Source: Orenia metallireducens (GTDB taxonomy: Bacteria; Bacillota; Halanaerobiia; Halobacteroidales; Halobacteroidaceae). Taken from it: DNA of 38,931 nucleotides. The stretch spans positions 1 to 38,931 of the forward strand of contig NZ_PVNB01000035.1 in assembly GCF_003001995.1 (NCBI RefSeq). Reading direction: 5' to 3'. The notes beneath the pieces are model-generated. The model worked only from the letters and a program-made list of their open reading frames with translations, made no database searches and was not told the origin of the DNA. Shown here piece by piece: positions 9,703 to 37,999 of the stretch. Made by a program: the position numbers and the translations under genes. Every line of letters begins with the position of its first letter. Position 1 is the stretch's first letter.

Positions 9703-9751
9703 AAAAAACCCTCACCCCTAATAAAGATAAGCTCTTTAGTAGGGACGAGAG
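9703..9751 (-). terminator. T-box regulated intrinsic terminator of leuS
   Basis: On the minus strand an 18-bp stem (17 pairs including G-U) with a 5-base loop is followed by six T. Its 5' arm overlaps the 3' part of the antiterminator, as required for the T-box switch. Confidence 0.9.
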
Positions 9752-9788
9752 TTTCTCGCGGTACCACCCTATTTGGTATATTAAAGAT

Positions 9789-9864
9789 TGGTGGAGATAA
9801 CCGGGCTCGAACCGGTGACCTCTACACTGCCAGTGTAGCGCTCTCCCAACTGAGCTATATCCCC
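9789..9864 (-). tRNA. tRNA-Ala (anticodon GGC)
   Basis: 76 bases including an encoded CCA end. The full cloverleaf folds: acceptor GGGGATA/TATCTCC with a G3-U70 pair (the alanine identity element), D arm GCTC/GAGC, anticodon stem CTACA/TGTAG with loop CTGGCAG, and T arm ACCGG/CCGGT with loop TTCGAGC. The anticodon is at 9829-9831 (plus-strand numbering), tRNA position 34-36. It lies inside the leuS T-box leader, between stem I and the antiterminator, so it must be transcribed from the leuS promoter or from an unseen internal one. Confidence 0.97.
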
Positions 9865-10012
9865 AAAACCATATACATACCCACTTTATAGAACAAGATA
9901 ACGGTTGTCAACCGTATAGACTACTACTACTTCACCTATATAGCTCCGAGGCGAGTTCAGTTTACACCTACTACTCCTCTTCTATGCCATAAAGCAATAT
10001 TTAACTACAATT

Positions 10013-29462: not shown

Positions 29463-29615
29463 TTATGGTATTGGTACACCTGCAGCATTTAATATTATTT
29501 TACCTGCATAAATTGCAGCTCCATCACTCACAGTATCTTCCACTTTATCCCTAAAGTGCGTCCACCAGCTTCCTCCATCAATCATCATTAACTCTTGCTC
29601 ATTCAATTCTTTCAT
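29463..29615 (-). CDS. Double-glycine leader peptide precursor 1 (bacteriocin-like)
   Basis: 50-aa peptide. The leader MKELNEQELMMIDGG is a textbook double-glycine leader (LxxxELxxIxGG type) for cleavage by a C39 peptidase exporter. The predicted 35-aa product begins SWWTHF, is amphipathic, has GAAIYAGKIILNAAG in its second half and ends PIP; it has no Cys. GGAAGGTG lies upstream of ATG 29615. The upstream promoter and triple operator match those of precursor 2. Likely a class II bacteriocin/microcin or a signalling peptide. Confidence 0.88.
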   Translation of the reverse strand: MKELNEQELMMIDGGSWWTHFRDKVEDTVSDGAAIYAGKIILNAAGVPIP

Positions 29616-29672
29616 CAAATATTCACCTTCCTCAATAAATTATTTTTTACCTCCTGAGAAGTATTTAACCAT

Positions 29673-29701
29673 ATTTTAACATGTTTTTTCTTATTTGTAA
29701 A
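29673..29701 (-). promoter_or_regulatory. Promoter of precursor peptide 1
   Basis: Minus strand: TTTACA (29696-29701), 17-base spacer, TAAAAT (29673-29678). Layout and spacing equal those at precursor 2. Confidence 0.75.
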
Positions 29702-29704
29702 CTG

Positions 29705-29796
29705 TACAATAGTATAATTTTTTACCTGATTTCCACTTCTGACTATACTATAGTACAAAATTTTTGGGGTCTTATATGAACTTTTATACTATAGTA
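29705..29796. promoter_or_regulatory. Triple dyad operator of precursor peptide 1
   Basis: Three copies of the palindrome TACTATAGTA: 29705-29714 (TACAATAGTA), 29746-29755 (perfect) and 29787-29796 (perfect). Centres are 41 bp apart both times. The nearest copy is centred about 43 bases before the expected transcription start, the usual place for a LuxR-type activator. Confidence 0.8.
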
Positions 29797-29892
29797 TAGT
29801 TTTAAGTGAACATTTAAAACTAATAATCTTTTCTAATTATATAGTATTATCTACTCATCTCAAGGAGTAACTTATCAAAAAGTAATTTAAAG

Positions 29893-30687
29893 CTATAATT
29901 GAAATTCTTCTACAGAAATAATCCCTGTCTTAATCGCTTTAATAATTGCCTTAAATATATTATCAGTATTTAGCGAATTTTTAATCTTCTTTTTATGATA
30001 TTTAACTGCACTATTGCTACAACACAATTTCTCTGCTATATCTTGTTCGGTATAACCATTAATAGTCATTTTTAAAATTTCTTTCTGTACTTTAGTCACT
30101 CTTAATACTCCATCTAATAATTTAAACTCTTTATTAAGTTTATATTTCTGAATTATATTTTCTCTTAATAACAAACCAAAAGCTATTAAACCTTTTTGTA
30201 AATCTTTCATTTGAGAATCTATTACTGATATATCTATATATCCTACTATATCACCTTCTATCCAAATAGGTAGAGCAAAACAATTCCATTCTTTAAAGAA
30301 ATTACAATAATGCTCCTCTGATATTAAATAAATCTCCTCTTTTAAATTCATAGCCAATGAAATAGCATTAGTTCCAATACTATCTTCAGCAAATGATATA
30401 CCTGCTTTTAAAAAACAATTATCTTCTAATTTCTTACTTATTACATCTAATAGAAACCCTTGCGAATTAATTAATAAGAAAATATGATTTTGATCAACAC
30501 AATCATTTATCTCATTAATACTTTCTCTAAAAATACTAATAAGCAACTTTTTTTTATTTAATTCTTCTCTAAGCTTATTTTCTTCTAACCTAATCCTAGG
30601 AGAAGACAAATCTTTTTTTAAACCTAATTTCAAACATTTACCAAGCGATTCTAAAGTTTTATTATTTATTTCTTTTTTTTCTCTCAT
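29893..30687 (-). CDS. GAF-like sensor and LuxR-type DNA-binding regulator
   Basis: 264 aa from ATG 30687, just after GGTGGAGGATT; an ATG at 30702 overlaps that site and is rejected. The sensor part (about 60-185) carries SFAEDSIGTNAISLAMNLKE and EEHYCNFFKEWNCFALPI, as in the GAF domains of AcoR/NtrC-type activators, but instead of an AAA+ domain it ends in a LuxR/GerE helix-turn-helix (about 200-264; VTKVQKEILKMTINGYTEQD). It lies directly upstream of precursor 1 and is the obvious candidate to bind the TACTATAGTA arrays. Confidence 0.85.
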   Translation of the reverse strand: MREKKEINNKTLESLGKCLKLGLKKDLSSPRIRLEENKLREELNKKKLLISIFRESINEINDCVDQNHIFLLINSQGFLLDVISKKLEDNCFLKAGISFAEDSIGTNAISLAMNLKEEIYLISEEHYCNFFKEWNCFALPIWIEGDIVGYIDISVIDSQMKDLQKGLIAFGLLLRENIIQKYKLNKEFKLLDGVLRVTKVQKEILKMTINGYTEQDIAEKLCCSNSAVKYHKKKIKNSLNTDNIFKAIIKAIKTGIISVEEFQL

Positions 30688-30892
30688 AATCCTCCACCTC
30701 ATATAATTAAATTCTATTTTTTAACAAAAAACCCTTTATTATTTAAGTGCTATTTATATACATTTATCTAGCTTTATTTTAAAAGAAAATTGGTATTATC
30801 ACTCTTTTTTTAGACTAAGATCAGGTTGTGTATAAACTTCTTAATTTATATATCAGATTTTATCCTTAAAAGGCATAATTCCTATAATGAGC

Positions 30893-31155: not shown

Positions 31156-32595
31156 TTATAGCTTAATCATCCCCACAAAATAAAATAATCTTAGCTTACT
31201 AATAATAATCTGGTCTTTAGCTGATTTGAAATCTACTAAGGCCTCTTCTAATTCTATATTCTTTTGTTTAAATTCCCTTGCTGTAATTACCCCATCTTGC
31301 AATTGCTTTTGTAATAATCTCTTTTCTAATTTAGCTTTATCTAAAGTTAGTTTTTTCTCCTGAAAATTAACTCTAGCTTCCTCTAATTTATTAATAAATT
31401 TATCAAGTTTTAAGGTTAAACTCTTCATTAGATTTTGAAAATCATTCTCTAATTTATCTAAATCATCTTTATAATCTAAATTAATTAATTCTTCCTTCCC
31501 TCCATCGAATAAATTTTGAGTTAAATTAACTCCTATACTCCATTCTTCTTCTAAACGATTATAATTAGCAACTAAATTTAACTTAGCTCTATTCTTATTC
31601 TTTTCCCATTTAAATTCTTTTTTAGTTAAATCTAATTCTAATTTATTAGAATTCACTTTAGGATTGCAATTTTTAATTCTTTCAATAAGATTACCTTTAC
31701 TATATTGATCTACTTTTAATAAATATATTTTTTCTTTATTATTATTCAGATACTTTGCATCTTCTGATAAAACTATTTGGGAGTCCCTAGATAATCCCAA
31801 TTCTTCTAACCATTCCTGTTGCTCCTCTATAAATTTATTGTTATTTTGAGCAAGATTAAATTCTGCTTTCTTCAAATCAATTTTAGCAATTAAAACTTGT
31901 TGCTCACCTGCTTCTTTTATAGATTGTTTCTTTAGAATTTTATTTAAGTAATCTTTACTAAAGTCATAATTCTCCTTAGCTATGTCCAAACTTTCTTTAA
32001 GCCTTAATATATTTAAGTACCCTTCAAGCCAATCAATCTTTTTGATTCCCTGTTGCCATTCAAGATTATTCTTTATTTTAAGGAATTCATTATAAGATTT
32101 TTTATACTCTTGTTCCAACTCTACAGGATTAATAGGATAGATAGGTTGAGTAACTTTCAAATTATAATCGACTTTATCCTCCAAATTTTCAGATTTAATA
32201 GAACTTAGTTTATCATTTAAAATTATATTATTTTCTAAGGTCAGTCCCGAAGAAAAGAGTTTAGTACCTTGTAATCCTATTTTTAAGTTTTTACCTTTCT
32301 CTTTCGTTTCTTCTGTAAACCCAAATTGATTCAAAACAAGATCAGTATCTTGTTGATATAATGTGCTTCCCGAAAAATCAACTTGCCAGGCAAATCCTGC
32401 CTTAATTTTAGCAAGTTCTCGCTCTGTTTTAGTTAGATTATACTCCAATTCTTGAAGAGATGGATTATTTTTTAATCCCCAATTTACTGCTTCCTGTAGG
32501 GTTATTTCTTTAGAGAATACTCTGGGGCTAATCATTAAAATTAATAATATTGTTATGTAGTAGAGTTTAATAGACTTATTTGTGAATAATATCAT
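31156..32595 (-). CDS. TolC-family outer-membrane efflux protein
   Basis: About 479 aa from ATG 32595. Signal peptide ending near VFSKE, then the repeat opening ITLQEAVNWGLKNNPSLQEL typical of TolC, long coiled-coil helices, and a second repeat beginning near NLIERIKNCNPKVNSNKLEL. Barrel-like strands such as KLNLVANYN and WSIGVNLTQNLFDGG are seen. Full TolC length, so it could form the outer-membrane channel for the peptide exporter. The 5' end overlaps the upstream TolC-like gene by 20 bases; the operon ends after it. Confidence 0.9.
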   Translation of the reverse strand: MILFTNKSIKLYYITILLILMISPRVFSKEITLQEAVNWGLKNNPSLQELEYNLTKTERELAKIKAGFAWQVDFSGSTLYQQDTDLVLNQFGFTEETKEKGKNLKIGLQGTKLFSSGLTLENNIILNDKLSSIKSENLEDKVDYNLKVTQPIYPINPVELEQEYKKSYNEFLKIKNNLEWQQGIKKIDWLEGYLNILRLKESLDIAKENYDFSKDYLNKILKKQSIKEAGEQQVLIAKIDLKKAEFNLAQNNNKFIEEQQEWLEELGLSRDSQIVLSEDAKYLNNNKEKIYLLKVDQYSKGNLIERIKNCNPKVNSNKLELDLTKKEFKWEKNKNRAKLNLVANYNRLEEEWSIGVNLTQNLFDGGKEELINLDYKDDLDKLENDFQNLMKSLTLKLDKFINKLEEARVNFQEKKLTLDKAKLEKRLLQKQLQDGVITAREFKQKNIELEEALVDFKSAKDQIIISKLRLFYFVGMIKL

Positions 32596-33661
32596 CAAGT
32601 GACACCCCAATCTCTAACCCCATATCTTTCTTTAAGTTTAATAATTTTAAATAATACTTAGTTATAGCAGCTTGATTATTATACTTAGCTTCTAATAATT
32701 TAACTTCAGCCGATAAGAGCTCATTTGGACTTTTTAAGCCTACTTGCTGTTGCTCTTTAATGATATTGTAGTTCTGTTTAATCTGCTTAAGATATAATTT
32801 AGTTAATTCTATAGTTTCAATAGTTTGTTGAAAGAGAGTATATTCTTTTTTTATTAAAGTTTCAAGCTCTCTCTTTTCTTTCTTATAATTTAGCTCAGTT
32901 AAATATTTACTGTTTTTTATTTTTTTTAAGTCTAACTTAGCAGTTTCAGCAACTTTTGCTTTCCTTAATGATTTTTCAGCTAACTCTATTTCTTCTTTCT
33001 TTAATTTTAAAGATAAACTATTCTCAAATGCAATATTCAATGCTTCTTTTTTAGTTATATTATATATGTCAGTTACATTTATTTGCTGTAATCGAATCTT
33101 TTTTTGATCATCTAATAACAACTTCTCTTTAAATTCTTGTAAAAGCAATTGATACTCGTCTTTAACTTTCTTTAGATCAAATACTGCATCATTATATTCC
33201 GTTTGCTGTTTTAACAAATCTAGATATCCTTTATAACCTCTTTTAACTTGTAATCTCATATCATCTAATACTCTTTTTTCAAATTCAACATCTTTCTCTT
33301 TAGCTATTATGTCCGACTTATTCTCAAGCAACTTCAAATAATCATTAACAACCTCAATAATTAATTGATTCTTATTCTGTCTATAATCATTTTTAGCTTT
33401 TGATAAATTAAATTTATTTTCTAATTTTTTATAATATGATTGAACTATTAAGTTATTACTTTTATTTTTAGTATAATCTAATTTAGAGTTATCTAAGTTT
33501 ACTTTAGATATTTCTAAATCTAAATTATTTTCCAAAGCCAATTCAATACTCTCAGCTAAGGTAAGTTTATCTATCTCTTTTGCAAATAATGGACATGATA
33601 TAAATAAACATAAGATAAGTATCATTCCTAAAATATTAATTTTATTAATAAATAATCTCAT
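32576..33661 (-). CDS. Short TolC-like protein
   Basis: About 361 aa from ATG 33661 (GGGGATGG upstream). Signal peptide ending near LFAKE, then KLTLAESIELALENNLDLEI and long Lys/Glu-rich coiled coils, with a second TolC repeat near ITKKEALNIAFENSLSLKLK. It is some 100 residues shorter than TolC and the usual barrel strands are not evident. It may be a periplasmic coiled-coil partner or a hetero-subunit of the neighbouring TolC. It lies between the adaptor gene and the full TolC gene and overlaps the latter. Confidence 0.82.
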   Translation of the reverse strand: MRLFINKINILGMILILCLFISCPLFAKEIDKLTLAESIELALENNLDLEISKVNLDNSKLDYTKNKSNNLIVQSYYKKLENKFNLSKAKNDYRQNKNQLIIEVVNDYLKLLENKSDIIAKEKDVEFEKRVLDDMRLQVKRGYKGYLDLLKQQTEYNDAVFDLKKVKDEYQLLLQEFKEKLLLDDQKKIRLQQINVTDIYNITKKEALNIAFENSLSLKLKKEEIELAEKSLRKAKVAETAKLDLKKIKNSKYLTELNYKKEKRELETLIKKEYTLFQQTIETIELTKLYLKQIKQNYNIIKEQQQVGLKSPNELLSAEVKLLEAKYNNQAAITKYYLKLLNLKKDMGLEIGVSLDDIIHK

Positions 33662-33704
33662 TAAAAACCATCCCCTATACGAACTAATCATTATGTAATA
33701 AATC

Positions 33705-33740: not shown

Positions 33741-34895
33741 TTAGGAAATAAAATCTAGTTTTTCTAGTACAATATAAAGTATTTTCTTGCGACGTACTAC
33801 AACCCTTACTTCACTTAACATTCCTGTCTTAATAAATTCTGCTTGTCCTTTTTTATCATAAAGTTTAGTTCCTCCAATTGTTGCTTCAACATTATAAGGC
33901 AAAGAAGCATTATTTTGCTGACCAATAGTAGCATCACTAGATATCTTGGTCAGTTTTCCAGTTAAAGTACCATACTCTTTATATGGTAACGATAAAAATC
34001 GATATTTTACCTTTTGTCCAGCTTCTAACTGACTTATATCTTTATTTCTAACTGTAATCTCCATCTTTAAATTAGTACCTTCACCTGGAATAATACGTAA
34101 TACTTCCGTTCCTGCTGGTATATAATCATTCTTATTAAATTTTTCTAAAACTTGCACCTTTCCAGTAATTGGTGCTCTTACTTGACTTAATTCAATACTT
34201 TCCTTAACATTCTCTAATTGCTGTTTTAGTTGAATCAGCTTATCTTCTGTAGATTCAATACCATCTTTTAAATCAACTAGTATCTCACTTCTATAGCTTT
34301 TCATACTTAGCTCAGCATAGTCATACTCTGACTTTAATTCCTCTAATGTACTTTTAGTAGTTGAATGATCACTTAAACTCTTCTCTCTTATATACCTATT
34401 TTTAGCTTTTTGATAATTTAATTTCAACTGTTGCAATTTAGATTTATAGACTAAATAACGATTATAATACTTTAAATTATCTTTATCCATAAAAGCTTTA
34501 TTCTCTTTAATACTTTTTTCTAATTTGAGCAAAGATGATTTTTCGCCTTCTAATTTTATAATTTCTTTTGTGTCAGTCTCTTTTTGTAAATCAAGAGATG
34601 CTGTATCTATAACGTACAATAGTTCACCCTTGTTAACCTTCTCCCCTTCTTGAAAATTAATCTCTTTAATCTTACCACCATTAACATTTCGTATCAAACT
34701 CACATTCTGAATTGGTCTAACTACACCTGTTGCCTTTACTACTATATCAATCTCACCAAACCACATCCATACCAAAGCTACTACTACAATAGCCAGAACT
34801 AAATAAATAAAAGTCACTATAAAATTAGGCTCTTTAGCTTCTAACATCTCTCTACTATCTGACAAATCCTCAAAATTAATTATCTCAGCTCTCAT
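33741..34895 (-). CDS. HlyD-family membrane fusion protein of the peptide exporter
   Basis: 384 aa. One transmembrane helix at about 28-48, a biotinyl-lipoyl half (about 60-95; VIRNVNGG-like SLIRNVNGGKIKEINFQEGE), a long coiled coil (about 100-235), the second lipoyl half (VRAPITGKVQVLEKFNKND) and a beta-barrel domain near 265-340. Such adaptors link an inner-membrane ABC exporter to a TolC channel (HlyD/CvaA type). Its ATG overlaps the stop of the ABC gene (ATGA), showing coupling. Confidence 0.93.
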   Translation of the reverse strand: MRAEIINFEDLSDSREMLEAKEPNFIVTFIYLVLAIVVVALVWMWFGEIDIVVKATGVVRPIQNVSLIRNVNGGKIKEINFQEGEKVNKGELLYVIDTASLDLQKETDTKEIIKLEGEKSSLLKLEKSIKENKAFMDKDNLKYYNRYLVYKSKLQQLKLNYQKAKNRYIREKSLSDHSTTKSTLEELKSEYDYAELSMKSYRSEILVDLKDGIESTEDKLIQLKQQLENVKESIELSQVRAPITGKVQVLEKFNKNDYIPAGTEVLRIIPGEGTNLKMEITVRNKDISQLEAGQKVKYRFLSLPYKEYGTLTGKLTKISSDATIGQQNNASLPYNVEATIGGTKLYDKKGQAEFIKTGMLSEVRVVVRRKKILYIVLEKLDFIS

Positions 34896-37105
34896 GATAC
34901 TGCCTCACCTACTTTAATCTTCCCTAGAGTTTGTCCTGCCCACAATTGATAATACTTTCCTTCTGCTTTGATTAGCTCATCATGACTACCTTGTTCTAAT
35001 ATCTTCCCTTTCTCTAAAACTACTATTTTATCACACTGCATAATTGTACTTAAACGATGGGCAATAATAACAGTAGTAATTCCTTTACTTAACTCTTCAA
35101 TAGTATGATGAATCGCTTTCTCAGTAGCCGTATCAAGATTACTAGTGGCTTCATCTAAAACTAGGATATCAGGTTGCTTTAATATCGCCCTAGCAATTGC
35201 AATTCTTTGGCGTTGCCCCCCTGATAAGTTTGTTCCTCGCTCACCCACTAATGTCTCATACCTTAAAGGAAGTTCATTGATAAAATTATGAGCCTGAGCT
35301 TTCTTGGCTGCATCTACTATCTCATCCATAGTAATATTTTTTAAGCCAAAAGCAATATTCTCTCTTAAAGTACCACTAAATAAGAAGACATCCTGAGGAA
35401 CATAACCAATATTTCTTCTTAAACTCTCTAGATTAATATCTTTAAGATTATAATTATCAATTAAAATTTCACCTTCTTGTGGAATATAATACTTTAATAA
35501 CAGTTTAGCCAAAGTAGTCTTTCCAGAACCACTCTCACCAACAAGAGCTATCTTTTCACCTGGCTTAACATCTATATTAATCTCCTCTAATACCTTTTTT
35601 CTAGTACCATAACGAAAATCCATATCCTTAATTTCAATCTTTCCTATTAACTTCTCGGGACTTATCTTCTTGAGTTCATTCTCTTTTTCAATATCTAAAT
35701 CTAAAATTTCACCTAAACGGTCAGAAGCTACAAAAGCTTCTTGAAGTTGGGGTTGTAGATTAATTAACCGTTGAATCGGGTCGTAAAAATACGCCAATAA
35801 AGCATTAAAGGTAATCAATTGCCCTACACTAATATTACCTTTGATTACCTGTAAACCCCCAACCCAGAGAATTACCAACTCACTAACAGAAGTAAGTGCC
35901 ATCTGTAAAGAAGATTGGAGATTTCTCATCCAAGTAACCTTAAAGATTGATCTGACAAATTTGATAAATCGACTTTCTGTCTCTAAATTGGCTTCATCTT
36001 CACCATTAAAAGCCTTGATTGTAGCTATTCCAGAGACTGATTCTACTAGATATGATTGTAGGTCTGCTGCCTGTTCCATCTCTTTACGATGAATTTTTTG
36101 AAAGGGACTATTAAAACTCCAAACTACAACTATATAAAAGGGAATAATTACTGCTGATACCCAAAAGAGTGTAGAACTTTGTATATAGAGTATAATTCCA
36201 CCTACAATTACCATCAAAGTATCCAACATTACTGAAATTGCAGCACCTGAGATGGCACTTCTAATCTTTGAAGCATCATTCAAACGGGATAATATCTCCC
36301 CAACTTTACGAGTATCAAAAAAAGACATAGGTAACTCTAATACATGCTGGTAATAATTTAATATCAAAGCTAAATCTATCTTCTGACTTAAATATAAAAG
36401 TAAATGACTACGAAATGCACTCATCCCAATCTTAAATAGAGTTAAAATTACTACTCCCGTTGAAACAATATGTAGGGTCTTAGTCAATCCATCAGATAAT
36501 ACAGTATCAATCAAATATTTAAAATAAAATGCACCTATAAGTCCCATTAAAGTATATAAGATTGAAGATATGAAAATTTCCACTAGTAACCGCTTGTGGG
36601 GAGTTATCAACCCAAAAAATCTGGCAAATAAACCGGTAGTTTCATCACCTTTCTCAAATTTTTCTGTTGGTGTCAATAAGATTAAGACTCCAGTCCAAAT
36701 CTCATAAAATTCCTCACGTTTATAAGTGACCAATCCTCTACCAGGATCAGCTATTATTATCTCATTCTCACCAACTTCATGAATCACTACATAATGCATC
36801 AACGTACCATCAATAATTACATGAGCTATAGCTGGCAAAGGAAAATCTTCATCTAAATGCTCAGGCTCTGCTTTGACCCCTTTAGCTGAAAAACCCAATT
36901 CTTTAGCTGCTTTAATCATCCCTAAAGCATTAGTTCCTTTCTTATCTGTACCTGCCACTTCTCTAATCTGGGTAATTGGTATCTTCAATCCATATTGCTT
37001 GGAGATTGTTGCTAAACAAGCTGCACCGCAATCAGTTAAATCATGCTGTTTGATACAATAGTACTTTTTAAATTTTCTCTTGAGTTTGTTTAGTGTTTTT
37101 TTCAT
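34892..37105 (-). CDS. C39-peptidase ABC exporter (peptide bacteriocin/microcin type)
   Basis: 737 aa. The N-terminal C39 protease domain (about 15-150) has the catalytic Cys in QHDLTDCGAACLA, His in MHYVVIHE and Asp in ADPGRG. A six-helix membrane domain follows (about 165-450), then the ATPase (about 485-730) with Walker A GESGSGKTT, signature LSGGQRQRIAIARA, Walker B ILVLDEATSNLD and the H-loop in IIAHRLST. It should cut precursor peptides after GG and export the product (CvaB/LcnC type). All catalytic residues are intact. AAGGTGGT precedes the ATG. Confidence 0.96.
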   Translation of the reverse strand: MKKTLNKLKRKFKKYYCIKQHDLTDCGAACLATISKQYGLKIPITQIREVAGTDKKGTNALGMIKAAKELGFSAKGVKAEPEHLDEDFPLPAIAHVIIDGTLMHYVVIHEVGENEIIIADPGRGLVTYKREEFYEIWTGVLILLTPTEKFEKGDETTGLFARFFGLITPHKRLLVEIFISSILYTLMGLIGAFYFKYLIDTVLSDGLTKTLHIVSTGVVILTLFKIGMSAFRSHLLLYLSQKIDLALILNYYQHVLELPMSFFDTRKVGEILSRLNDASKIRSAISGAAISVMLDTLMVIVGGIILYIQSSTLFWVSAVIIPFYIVVVWSFNSPFQKIHRKEMEQAADLQSYLVESVSGIATIKAFNGEDEANLETESRFIKFVRSIFKVTWMRNLQSSLQMALTSVSELVILWVGGLQVIKGNISVGQLITFNALLAYFYDPIQRLINLQPQLQEAFVASDRLGEILDLDIEKENELKKISPEKLIGKIEIKDMDFRYGTRKKVLEEINIDVKPGEKIALVGESGSGKTTLAKLLLKYYIPQEGEILIDNYNLKDINLESLRRNIGYVPQDVFLFSGTLRENIAFGLKNITMDEIVDAAKKAQAHNFINELPLRYETLVGERGTNLSGGQRQRIAIARAILKQPDILVLDEATSNLDTATEKAIHHTIEELSKGITTVIIAHRLSTIMQCDKIVVLEKGKILEQGSHDELIKAEGKYYQLWAGQTLGKIKVGEAVS

Positions 37106-37576: not shown

Positions 37577-37708
37577 TTAGCAAGATACATCTTTATATCT
37601 GTCACGATGAACTTTTAAAATTAAGCCAGAAAATCTCATCTGCATTCCTGCAAAAGGAATCCACCCTCCATCAACCATCATTAACTCTTGTTCATTCAAT
37701 TCTCTCAT
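37577..37708 (-). CDS. Double-glycine leader peptide precursor 2 (bacteriocin-like)
   Basis: 43-aa peptide with leader MRELNEQELMMVDGG, differing from precursor 1 at only two of 15 positions. The predicted 28-aa product begins WIPFAG, is basic in the second half (LKVHRDRYKD) and ends in a single Cys. The leader identity and the different product are typical of a multi-peptide system served by one exporter. GGAAAGGGTG lies upstream of ATG 37708. First gene of the exporter operon. Confidence 0.87.
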   Translation of the reverse strand: MRELNEQELMMVDGGWIPFAGMQMRFSGLILKVHRDRYKDVSC

Positions 37709-37772
37709 CAATTCTTCACCCTTTCCTCAATTATGTAGTTATTTTTTACCTCTTGAGAAGCACTGTATCTAT

Positions 37773-37801
37773 ATATTACCATAGATGTTTTAATTTGTAC
37801 A
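37773..37801 (-). promoter_or_regulatory. Promoter of precursor peptide 2 and the exporter operon
   Basis: Minus strand: TGTACA (37796-37801), 17-base spacer, TAATAT (37773-37778). Confidence 0.72.
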
Positions 37802-37804
37802 CTG

Positions 37805-37896
37805 TACTATAGTACAAATTTTTGCACTATTTCCACTTCTGACTATACTATAGTACAAACTTTTCAACGTTTTATCTTCAAATTTATACGATAGTA
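37805..37896. promoter_or_regulatory. Triple dyad operator of precursor peptide 2
   Basis: TACTATAGTA at 37805-37814 and 37846-37855 (both perfect) and TACGATAGTA at 37887-37896, centres 41 bp apart. Flanking bases such as ACTTCTGACTATACTA are also kept from the precursor 1 region. Confidence 0.8.
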
Positions 37897-37999
37897 TAGT
37901 TTTAAGTGACTATTACTTTAAATAAAAAATTTAATTAGTCTCTCTTTAGTAAACGTATAATACTCTTCTCAAATACTAAATATGTCATAAAACTATTCT

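Follow-up and report, generated by a model that had tools for sequence, protein, structure and literature searches.

Helically phased dyad arrays before bacteriocin-like peptide genes of Orenia metallireducens as candidate operators of a GAF-LuxR regulator

The window, meaning the whole 38,931-nt stretch of Orenia metallireducens DNA analyzed here (contig NZ_PVNB01000035.1), carries two genes for short peptides with double-glycine leaders. All genes, dyads and promoter boxes located in the window below lie on the minus strand. Precursor peptide 1 (29463–29618, 51 aa, leader MMKELNEQELMMIDGG) scored 21.6 bits against Pfam Bacteriocin_IIc, under the cut-off of 27.1, and 20.3 bits against TIGR03949, just under the cut-off of 21.5; its leader is resembled in 18 other peptides encoded behind dyad promoters of the kind described below. 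Precursor peptide 2 (37577–37711, 44 aa, leader MMRELNEQELMMVDGG) passed the TIGR03949 class IIb bacteriocin model with 27.4 bits (cut-off 21.5). It is followed on the same strand by genes for a peptidase C39 ABC exporter (34892–37105; TIGR01193, 703.7 bits, cut-off 523.85; Peptidase_C39, 141.7 bits), an HlyD-type periplasmic adaptor (33741–34895; HlyD_3, 65.9 bits) and two tandem TolC-type outer membrane channels (31156–33691, made up of 32576–33691 and 31156–32610; OEP, 78.2 and 76.5 bits). C39-containing ABC exporters are the kind that cleave double-glycine leaders, and by leader and exporter the bacteriocin-like peptides of the window are predicted to belong to class II. Elsewhere in the window, an Rfam T-box leader match (9738–9993, 94.1 bits, cut-off 93) spans a predicted tRNA-Ala(GGC) at 9789–9864 on the same minus strand, an overlap that is possibly an artefact.

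The proposed activator is a 269-aa GAF-LuxR regulator encoded at 29893–30702, directly upstream of the first dyad array and on the same strand. Its C-terminus (residues 203–255) matched GerE with 41.3 bits against a Pfam cut-off of 23.5, which identifies a LuxR/GerE helix-turn-helix, and its N-terminal region (residues 6–160) matched DhaR with 46 bits. In an AlphaFold2 model (mean pLDDT 72, seven sequences), DhaR(N) was the best structural relative, followed by the LuxR-type proteins SdiA and RhlR. The window regulator had no Pfam GAF match; a GAF domain is nevertheless likely, because the Thermoanaerobacterium homologue passes Pfam GAF (25.6 bits, cut-off 22.4) and the fold predicted for the window regulator agrees with that of DhaR(N). 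Identity as an acyl-homoserine-lactone LuxR protein was rejected, as the Pfam autoinducer-binding domain was absent and both N-terminus and model match DhaR; the SdiA family match reached 34.5 bits against a cut-off of 350 and fell mainly in the C-terminal half. A NarL/FixJ response regulator was likewise rejected, as the Pfam scan of the regulator detected no receiver domain. A second GAF-LuxR gene of the genome, 44% identical, lies on contig C63 (L008, 2921–4056) beside a degenerate two-dyad array. That array stands near the contig end and looks cut by a transposase-like sequence.

Array 1, before precursor 1, consists of a distal dyad D1 (29783–29800, core 29787–29796, TACTATAGTA), a middle dyad D2 (29742–29759, core 29746–29755) and a proximal dyad D3 (29701–29718, core 29705–29714, TACTATTGTA in gene orientation), with centers at 29791.5, 29750.5 and 29709.5 and both intervals exactly 41 bp. 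D1 and D2 were delimited from sequence, register and conservation relative to other arrays, and D3 from sequence and promoter geometry. In the window scan, TACTATAGTA occurred at D1 and D2 with 0 mismatches, and D3 is an imperfect dyad with one mismatch that reads TACAATAGTA. The preliminary description had reported three dyads at these positions with this spacing, and the sequence scan and simulations bore it out for array 1, one dyad being imperfect; it had, however, overlooked a second array in the window and had seen only the 10-bp core of a dyad of about 18 bp, of the type ACTA-N10-TAGT. Array 2 (37805–37896, cores starting at 37805, 37846 and 37887) lies before the second precursor gene with the same 41-bp spacing. 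Its dyads, found by sequence scan with promoter geometry added for D3, are D1 at 37883–37900 (core 37887–37896, TACGATAGTA on the plus strand), D2 at 37842–37859 (core 37846–37855) and D3 at 37801–37818 (core 37805–37814). Sites with at most one mismatch numbered 11 in the window, against 5.1 ± 2.1 expected, and the 41-bp spacing occurred in four pairs and two triples, compared with 0 pairs in 300 first-order Markov simulations. The real signal in the window is the 41-bp periodicity rather than the site count.

Just outside D1 of array 1, at 29800–29812, stands a GTCACTT element that recurs at the corresponding position of other arrays. The outer flanks read CACTT at D1 and AAGTG at D2 in most of the genome's arrays. 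AAGTG, the inverse of the element, is conserved outside D2; the D1 element alone is also shared by G007, another genus of the family. This element may be part of the binding site or a separate site.

In gene direction, the order D1-D2-D3, with centers 41 bp apart, is followed 22 nt after the D3 18-mer by a TANNNT -10 box. For array 1 the predicted -10 is TAAAAT (29673–29678), exactly 31 bp from the D3 center, and at the D3 edge, 17 bp before it, is a -35-like hexamer TTTACA (29696–29701), assigned by consensus match only. For array 2 an extended -10 (TGG-TAATAT, 37773–37778) is predicted, again 31 bp from the D3 center. A TANNNT placed exactly 31 bp past the proximal dyad center was present in 30 of the 31 promoters compiled, and none of the other offsets tested exceeded 39%; the set covers the window's genome, G007, G008, G002, G262, Thermoanaerobacterium, a Halanaerobiales MAG and a Clostridia MAG, and since its members were picked for carrying the dyad and many are related within one genome, they are not independent events. 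Three further loci fit the offset, and the second copy in G243 does not. Taking the predicted -10 to start at -12, the predicted centers fall at about -43.5 (D3), -84.5 (D2) and -125.5 (D1), relative to a start site that is itself predicted. D3 would thus occupy a class II activator position overlapping the -35, as in a Lux-box-like operator. The proximal dyad had been placed at about -43, adjoining the -35 box, a placement that is correct provided that the predicted -10 is. The -35 boxes, TTTACA, TGTACA and TATACA, are poor, and the -10 is often extended. An overlap of D3 with the -35 would suit repression too, and the GAF-LuxR protein might bind the array as a repressor, or activate at D3 only with the upstream dyads as remnants of tandem duplication. 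Against this, poor -35 hexamers are what is seen at activator-dependent promoters.

Nine arrays, all at 41 bp, were found in the window's genome (4.1 Mb, 95 contigs): two on C35, the window, three on C45, one on C9, two on C11 and one on C63. A genome motif scan at 41-bp periodicity, suggested in the preliminary description, yielded 23 loose pairs of the form TACNNNNGTA-N16..46-TACNNNNGTA. Sixteen of them have a spacing of exactly 41 bp, and every one of these lies in an array; the remaining seven had scattered spacings, comparable to the five of a reversed-pattern control. Scanning the genome for the dyad core plus -10 with two mismatches was uninformative (386 and 455 matches versus 406 and 424 in the control); six exact matches were obtained, five of which are array promoters. 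Across six arrays, with one duplicate omitted, dyad columns were 0.90–0.95 conserved within the genome versus 0.72 for the D1-D2 spacer and 0.83 for the D2-D3 spacer, and between two genera the dyads were 74–81% identical, the spacers 35–46%.

Near-identical copies of the C11 arrays, transposase genes around many such loci and the palindromic nature of every dyad are features that a structural or mobile DNA repeat, such as copied promoter cassettes or hairpin DNA or RNA, would have without any dedicated activator. Such a repeat would hardly keep its dyads while the spacers diverge, hold the -10 geometry fixed across several genera, or preserve its architecture when the dyad sequence is swapped (CCCAT in place of TACTA), and we consider this origin extremely improbable. 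An IMG/VR scan for the 41-bp pair returned five stretches, all unrelated repeats without a precursor context, and a phage link was rejected.

Dyad promoters were counted in three genera belonging to one family: 19 of the 20 lie before short genes with double-glycine leaders, and the twentieth precedes a gene for a DUF3857/transglutaminase-like protein. Array-linked DUF3857/transglutaminase-like proteins and long ankyrin-repeat proteins were observed beside peptide genes at L005 (1995–6283) and L006 (1416–3773). On contig C45 (L005, 6525–12794), an operon-like stretch behind an array encodes two radical SAM/SPASM-TPR proteins together with about nine small peptides that have leaders ending in ITGG; this is probably a modified-peptide (RiPP) cluster that shares the dyad-array control.

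In the window and at three places in G007, the regulator gene lies immediately upstream of dyads and precursor and on their strand; in G262 the three are likewise adjacent and codirectional. G007 has nine dyad promoters of the type TACTTTAGTA/TACTAAAGTA, several with a 41-bp series and a few with the proximal dyad only. In G008, a third genus of the family, three array copies with dyads like ACTACCCATTTGGGTAGT were found, with the regulator beside arrays in copies broken by insertion sequences; at L040 (6350–8395 and 13367–14415) of this genome, insertion sequences interrupt both the GAF-LuxR gene and a copy of the exporter, and three array-precursor copies persist. G002 has what looks like a decayed version of the array. 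Within the order, genomes that bear arrays also have close regulator homologues.

Array, regulator and close exporter share the same three genomes of the family, and co-inheritance alone could explain their co-occurrence there. A different transcription factor might activate at the dyads, with the GAF-LuxR protein a passenger of a mobile peptide module or a regulator of something else. That the three travel together in the family would fit such a factor, as would their joint absence in a search of two other genomes of the window's genus. Likewise, no GAF-LuxR gene was present in the stretches read around the arrays on C9, C11 and C45, which would therefore need control in trans. The GAF-LuxR genes of Thermoanaerobacterium, of contig C5 of G262 and of a Clostridia MAG speak against such a factor: behind them stand dyads that keep the outer bases (ACTA...TAGT type) and the 31-bp geometry but have other genes downstream, and at the Thermoanaerobacterium locus the peptide/exporter module is absent. 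This links the dyads with the regulator and not with the peptide exporter. The inner half-sites, moreover, change with the lineage of the regulator, and a different factor appears unlikely, with a modest residual chance. The suggestion that the adjacent GAF-LuxR gene is the best candidate for the activator gained from these homologues, some of them beside dyads where peptide and exporter genes are missing.

Beyond the family, A+T-rich noise overwhelmed a generic palindrome-pair detector, and dyads were sought there by their outer bases and their geometry relative to the -10. In the phylum scan, ACTA-N10-TAGT pairs were found in three of 299 genomes, and only that in G096, of the genus Thermoanaerobacterium, was a true regulator-adjacent pair. 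Among more distant GAF-LuxR paralogues, most lacked such a dyad in the scanned regions, the exceptions being two weak candidates from the automatic scan and two found by eye in G238 and G096. The Thermoanaerobacterium genomes (L131–L142; G238 and G096) have about seven GAF-LuxR paralogues each, most without such a dyad nearby and many with genes for secreted proteins directly downstream. Some dyad pairs in this genus are mutual inverted copies, and hairpin folding is also possible there.

Center-to-center distances elsewhere were 40 and 41 bp in G008, 39 bp in G096, 41 bp in G238, 62 bp in G262 and 64 bp at L078. At 10.5 bp per turn these correspond to 3.7–3.9 turns (39–41 bp), 5.9 turns (62 bp) and 6.1 turns (64 bp), so that the spacings lie mostly near whole turns, about as sites on the same face of the helix would require, with 39 bp 0.3 turn off; in one G096 locus the second dyad lies closer. 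Same-face placement had been proposed from the 41-bp spacing alone, and the recurrence of near-integral spacing at 39, 40, 41, 62 and 64 bp agrees with that prediction. Near-whole-turn spacing at different lengths would not be expected if the upstream dyads were duplication remnants, nor would upstream dyads conserved like D3 beside drifting spacers. Retention of the proximal dyad alone at some G007 promoters and of two dyads only in one C45 array would sit well with activation at D3 only. Overall, repression or activation at D3 only seems improbable, less credible than a different factor.

The inner half-site differs by lineage (TACTA, TACTT, CCCAT and CCTGA), and the outer bases stay ACTA or ACTG. 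Non-TAC half-sites go with seven of eight regulators that carry Asn close to the beginning of the recognition helix versus none of five regulators without it (Fisher P 0.005, unadjusted for kinship and with the residue chosen after seeing the data), and one G007 regulator type is an exception to the trend. The inner half-site may thus loosely track recognition-helix residues, a relation that is suggestive only. Tentatively, and with slightly less than an even chance of being right, a portable one-component unit of GAF-LuxR gene and phased dyads could have spread among anaerobic Firmicutes and co-diversified, the helix and inner half-site changing together while outer bases, helical phase and -10 distance stayed fixed, which would yield orthogonal regulator-operator pairs controlling sets of exported peptides.

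Taken together, the dyads probably serve as operators for a GAF-LuxR activator that drives a bacteriocin-like regulon, the likeliest candidate being the protein encoded beside array 1. Their earlier designation as activator sites is supported by the comparison, in which the proximal center is fixed 31 bp before the -10. The acting paralogue could be the window or the C63 GAF-LuxR protein, most likely the former. From the observed sites, spacing, recurrence, promoter geometry and gene association we infer binding, dimer occupancy, cooperativity, activation and a signal, as follows. Each dyad would be bound by a GAF-LuxR dimer, most likely of the 29893–30702 product. The dimer at D3, centered at about -43.5 over a poor -35, would touch RNA polymerase for class II activation of a promoter whose -10 is often extended. 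Further dimers at D2 and D1, 41 and 82 bp farther upstream on nearly the same helix face, would help by cooperative contact or bending. A signal reaching the GAF domain would then turn on a genome-wide regulon comprising the exported peptides with double-glycine leaders and their partners.

Read this way, what began as an oddity of sequence defines a predicted regulon, in which genes behind arrays can be called as targets, including unannotated peptides and the peptide cluster with radical SAM proteins. It points to a way in which halophilic and thermophilic anaerobes could induce bacteriocin-like peptides, and the naturally occurring pairs of regulator and site lend themselves to work on the DNA specificity of LuxR-type proteins; phased activator sites as such are a familiar kind of mechanism. 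A literature search, limited to the library consulted, found no paper on a GAF-LuxR bacteriocin regulator or such an operator.

Among known systems, DhaR/AcoR-type GAF regulators are alike in the N-terminal region, DhaR(N) being the best solved relative of the model. DhaR continues into an AAA+ activator domain, whereas the window regulator ends in a LuxR-type helix-turn-helix. The lux box is an element of about 20 nt located 42.5 nt upstream of the start (PMC7585371). The arrays share with this class II LuxR promoter a dyad of about 18–20 bp near -43 over the -35 and the binding of a LuxR-type dimer proposed here, but differ in sequence, in a GAF instead of an acyl-homoserine-lactone-binding domain, in having three phased dyads and not one, and in targets, which here are exported double-glycine peptides. 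The plantaricin operators consist of 9-bp tandem (direct) repeats with a 12-bp spacer, phased with the helix and bound cooperatively by the LytTR response regulators PlnC and PlnD in a system with a peptide pheromone and a kinase (PMC2714321). Common to both are helix-phased repeats and a promoter element shared by several bacteriocin operons of one regulon, but here 18-bp dyads at 41 bp would be read by a one-component GAF-LuxR protein. Identity as Pln-type LytTR operators was rejected, the repeats being dyads at 41 bp and not two 9-bp repeats with a 12-bp spacer. By analogy, the arrays most likely resemble a lux-box promoter with extra phased sites, in a role like that of the PlnC/PlnD repeats, and match neither by sequence or regulator family.
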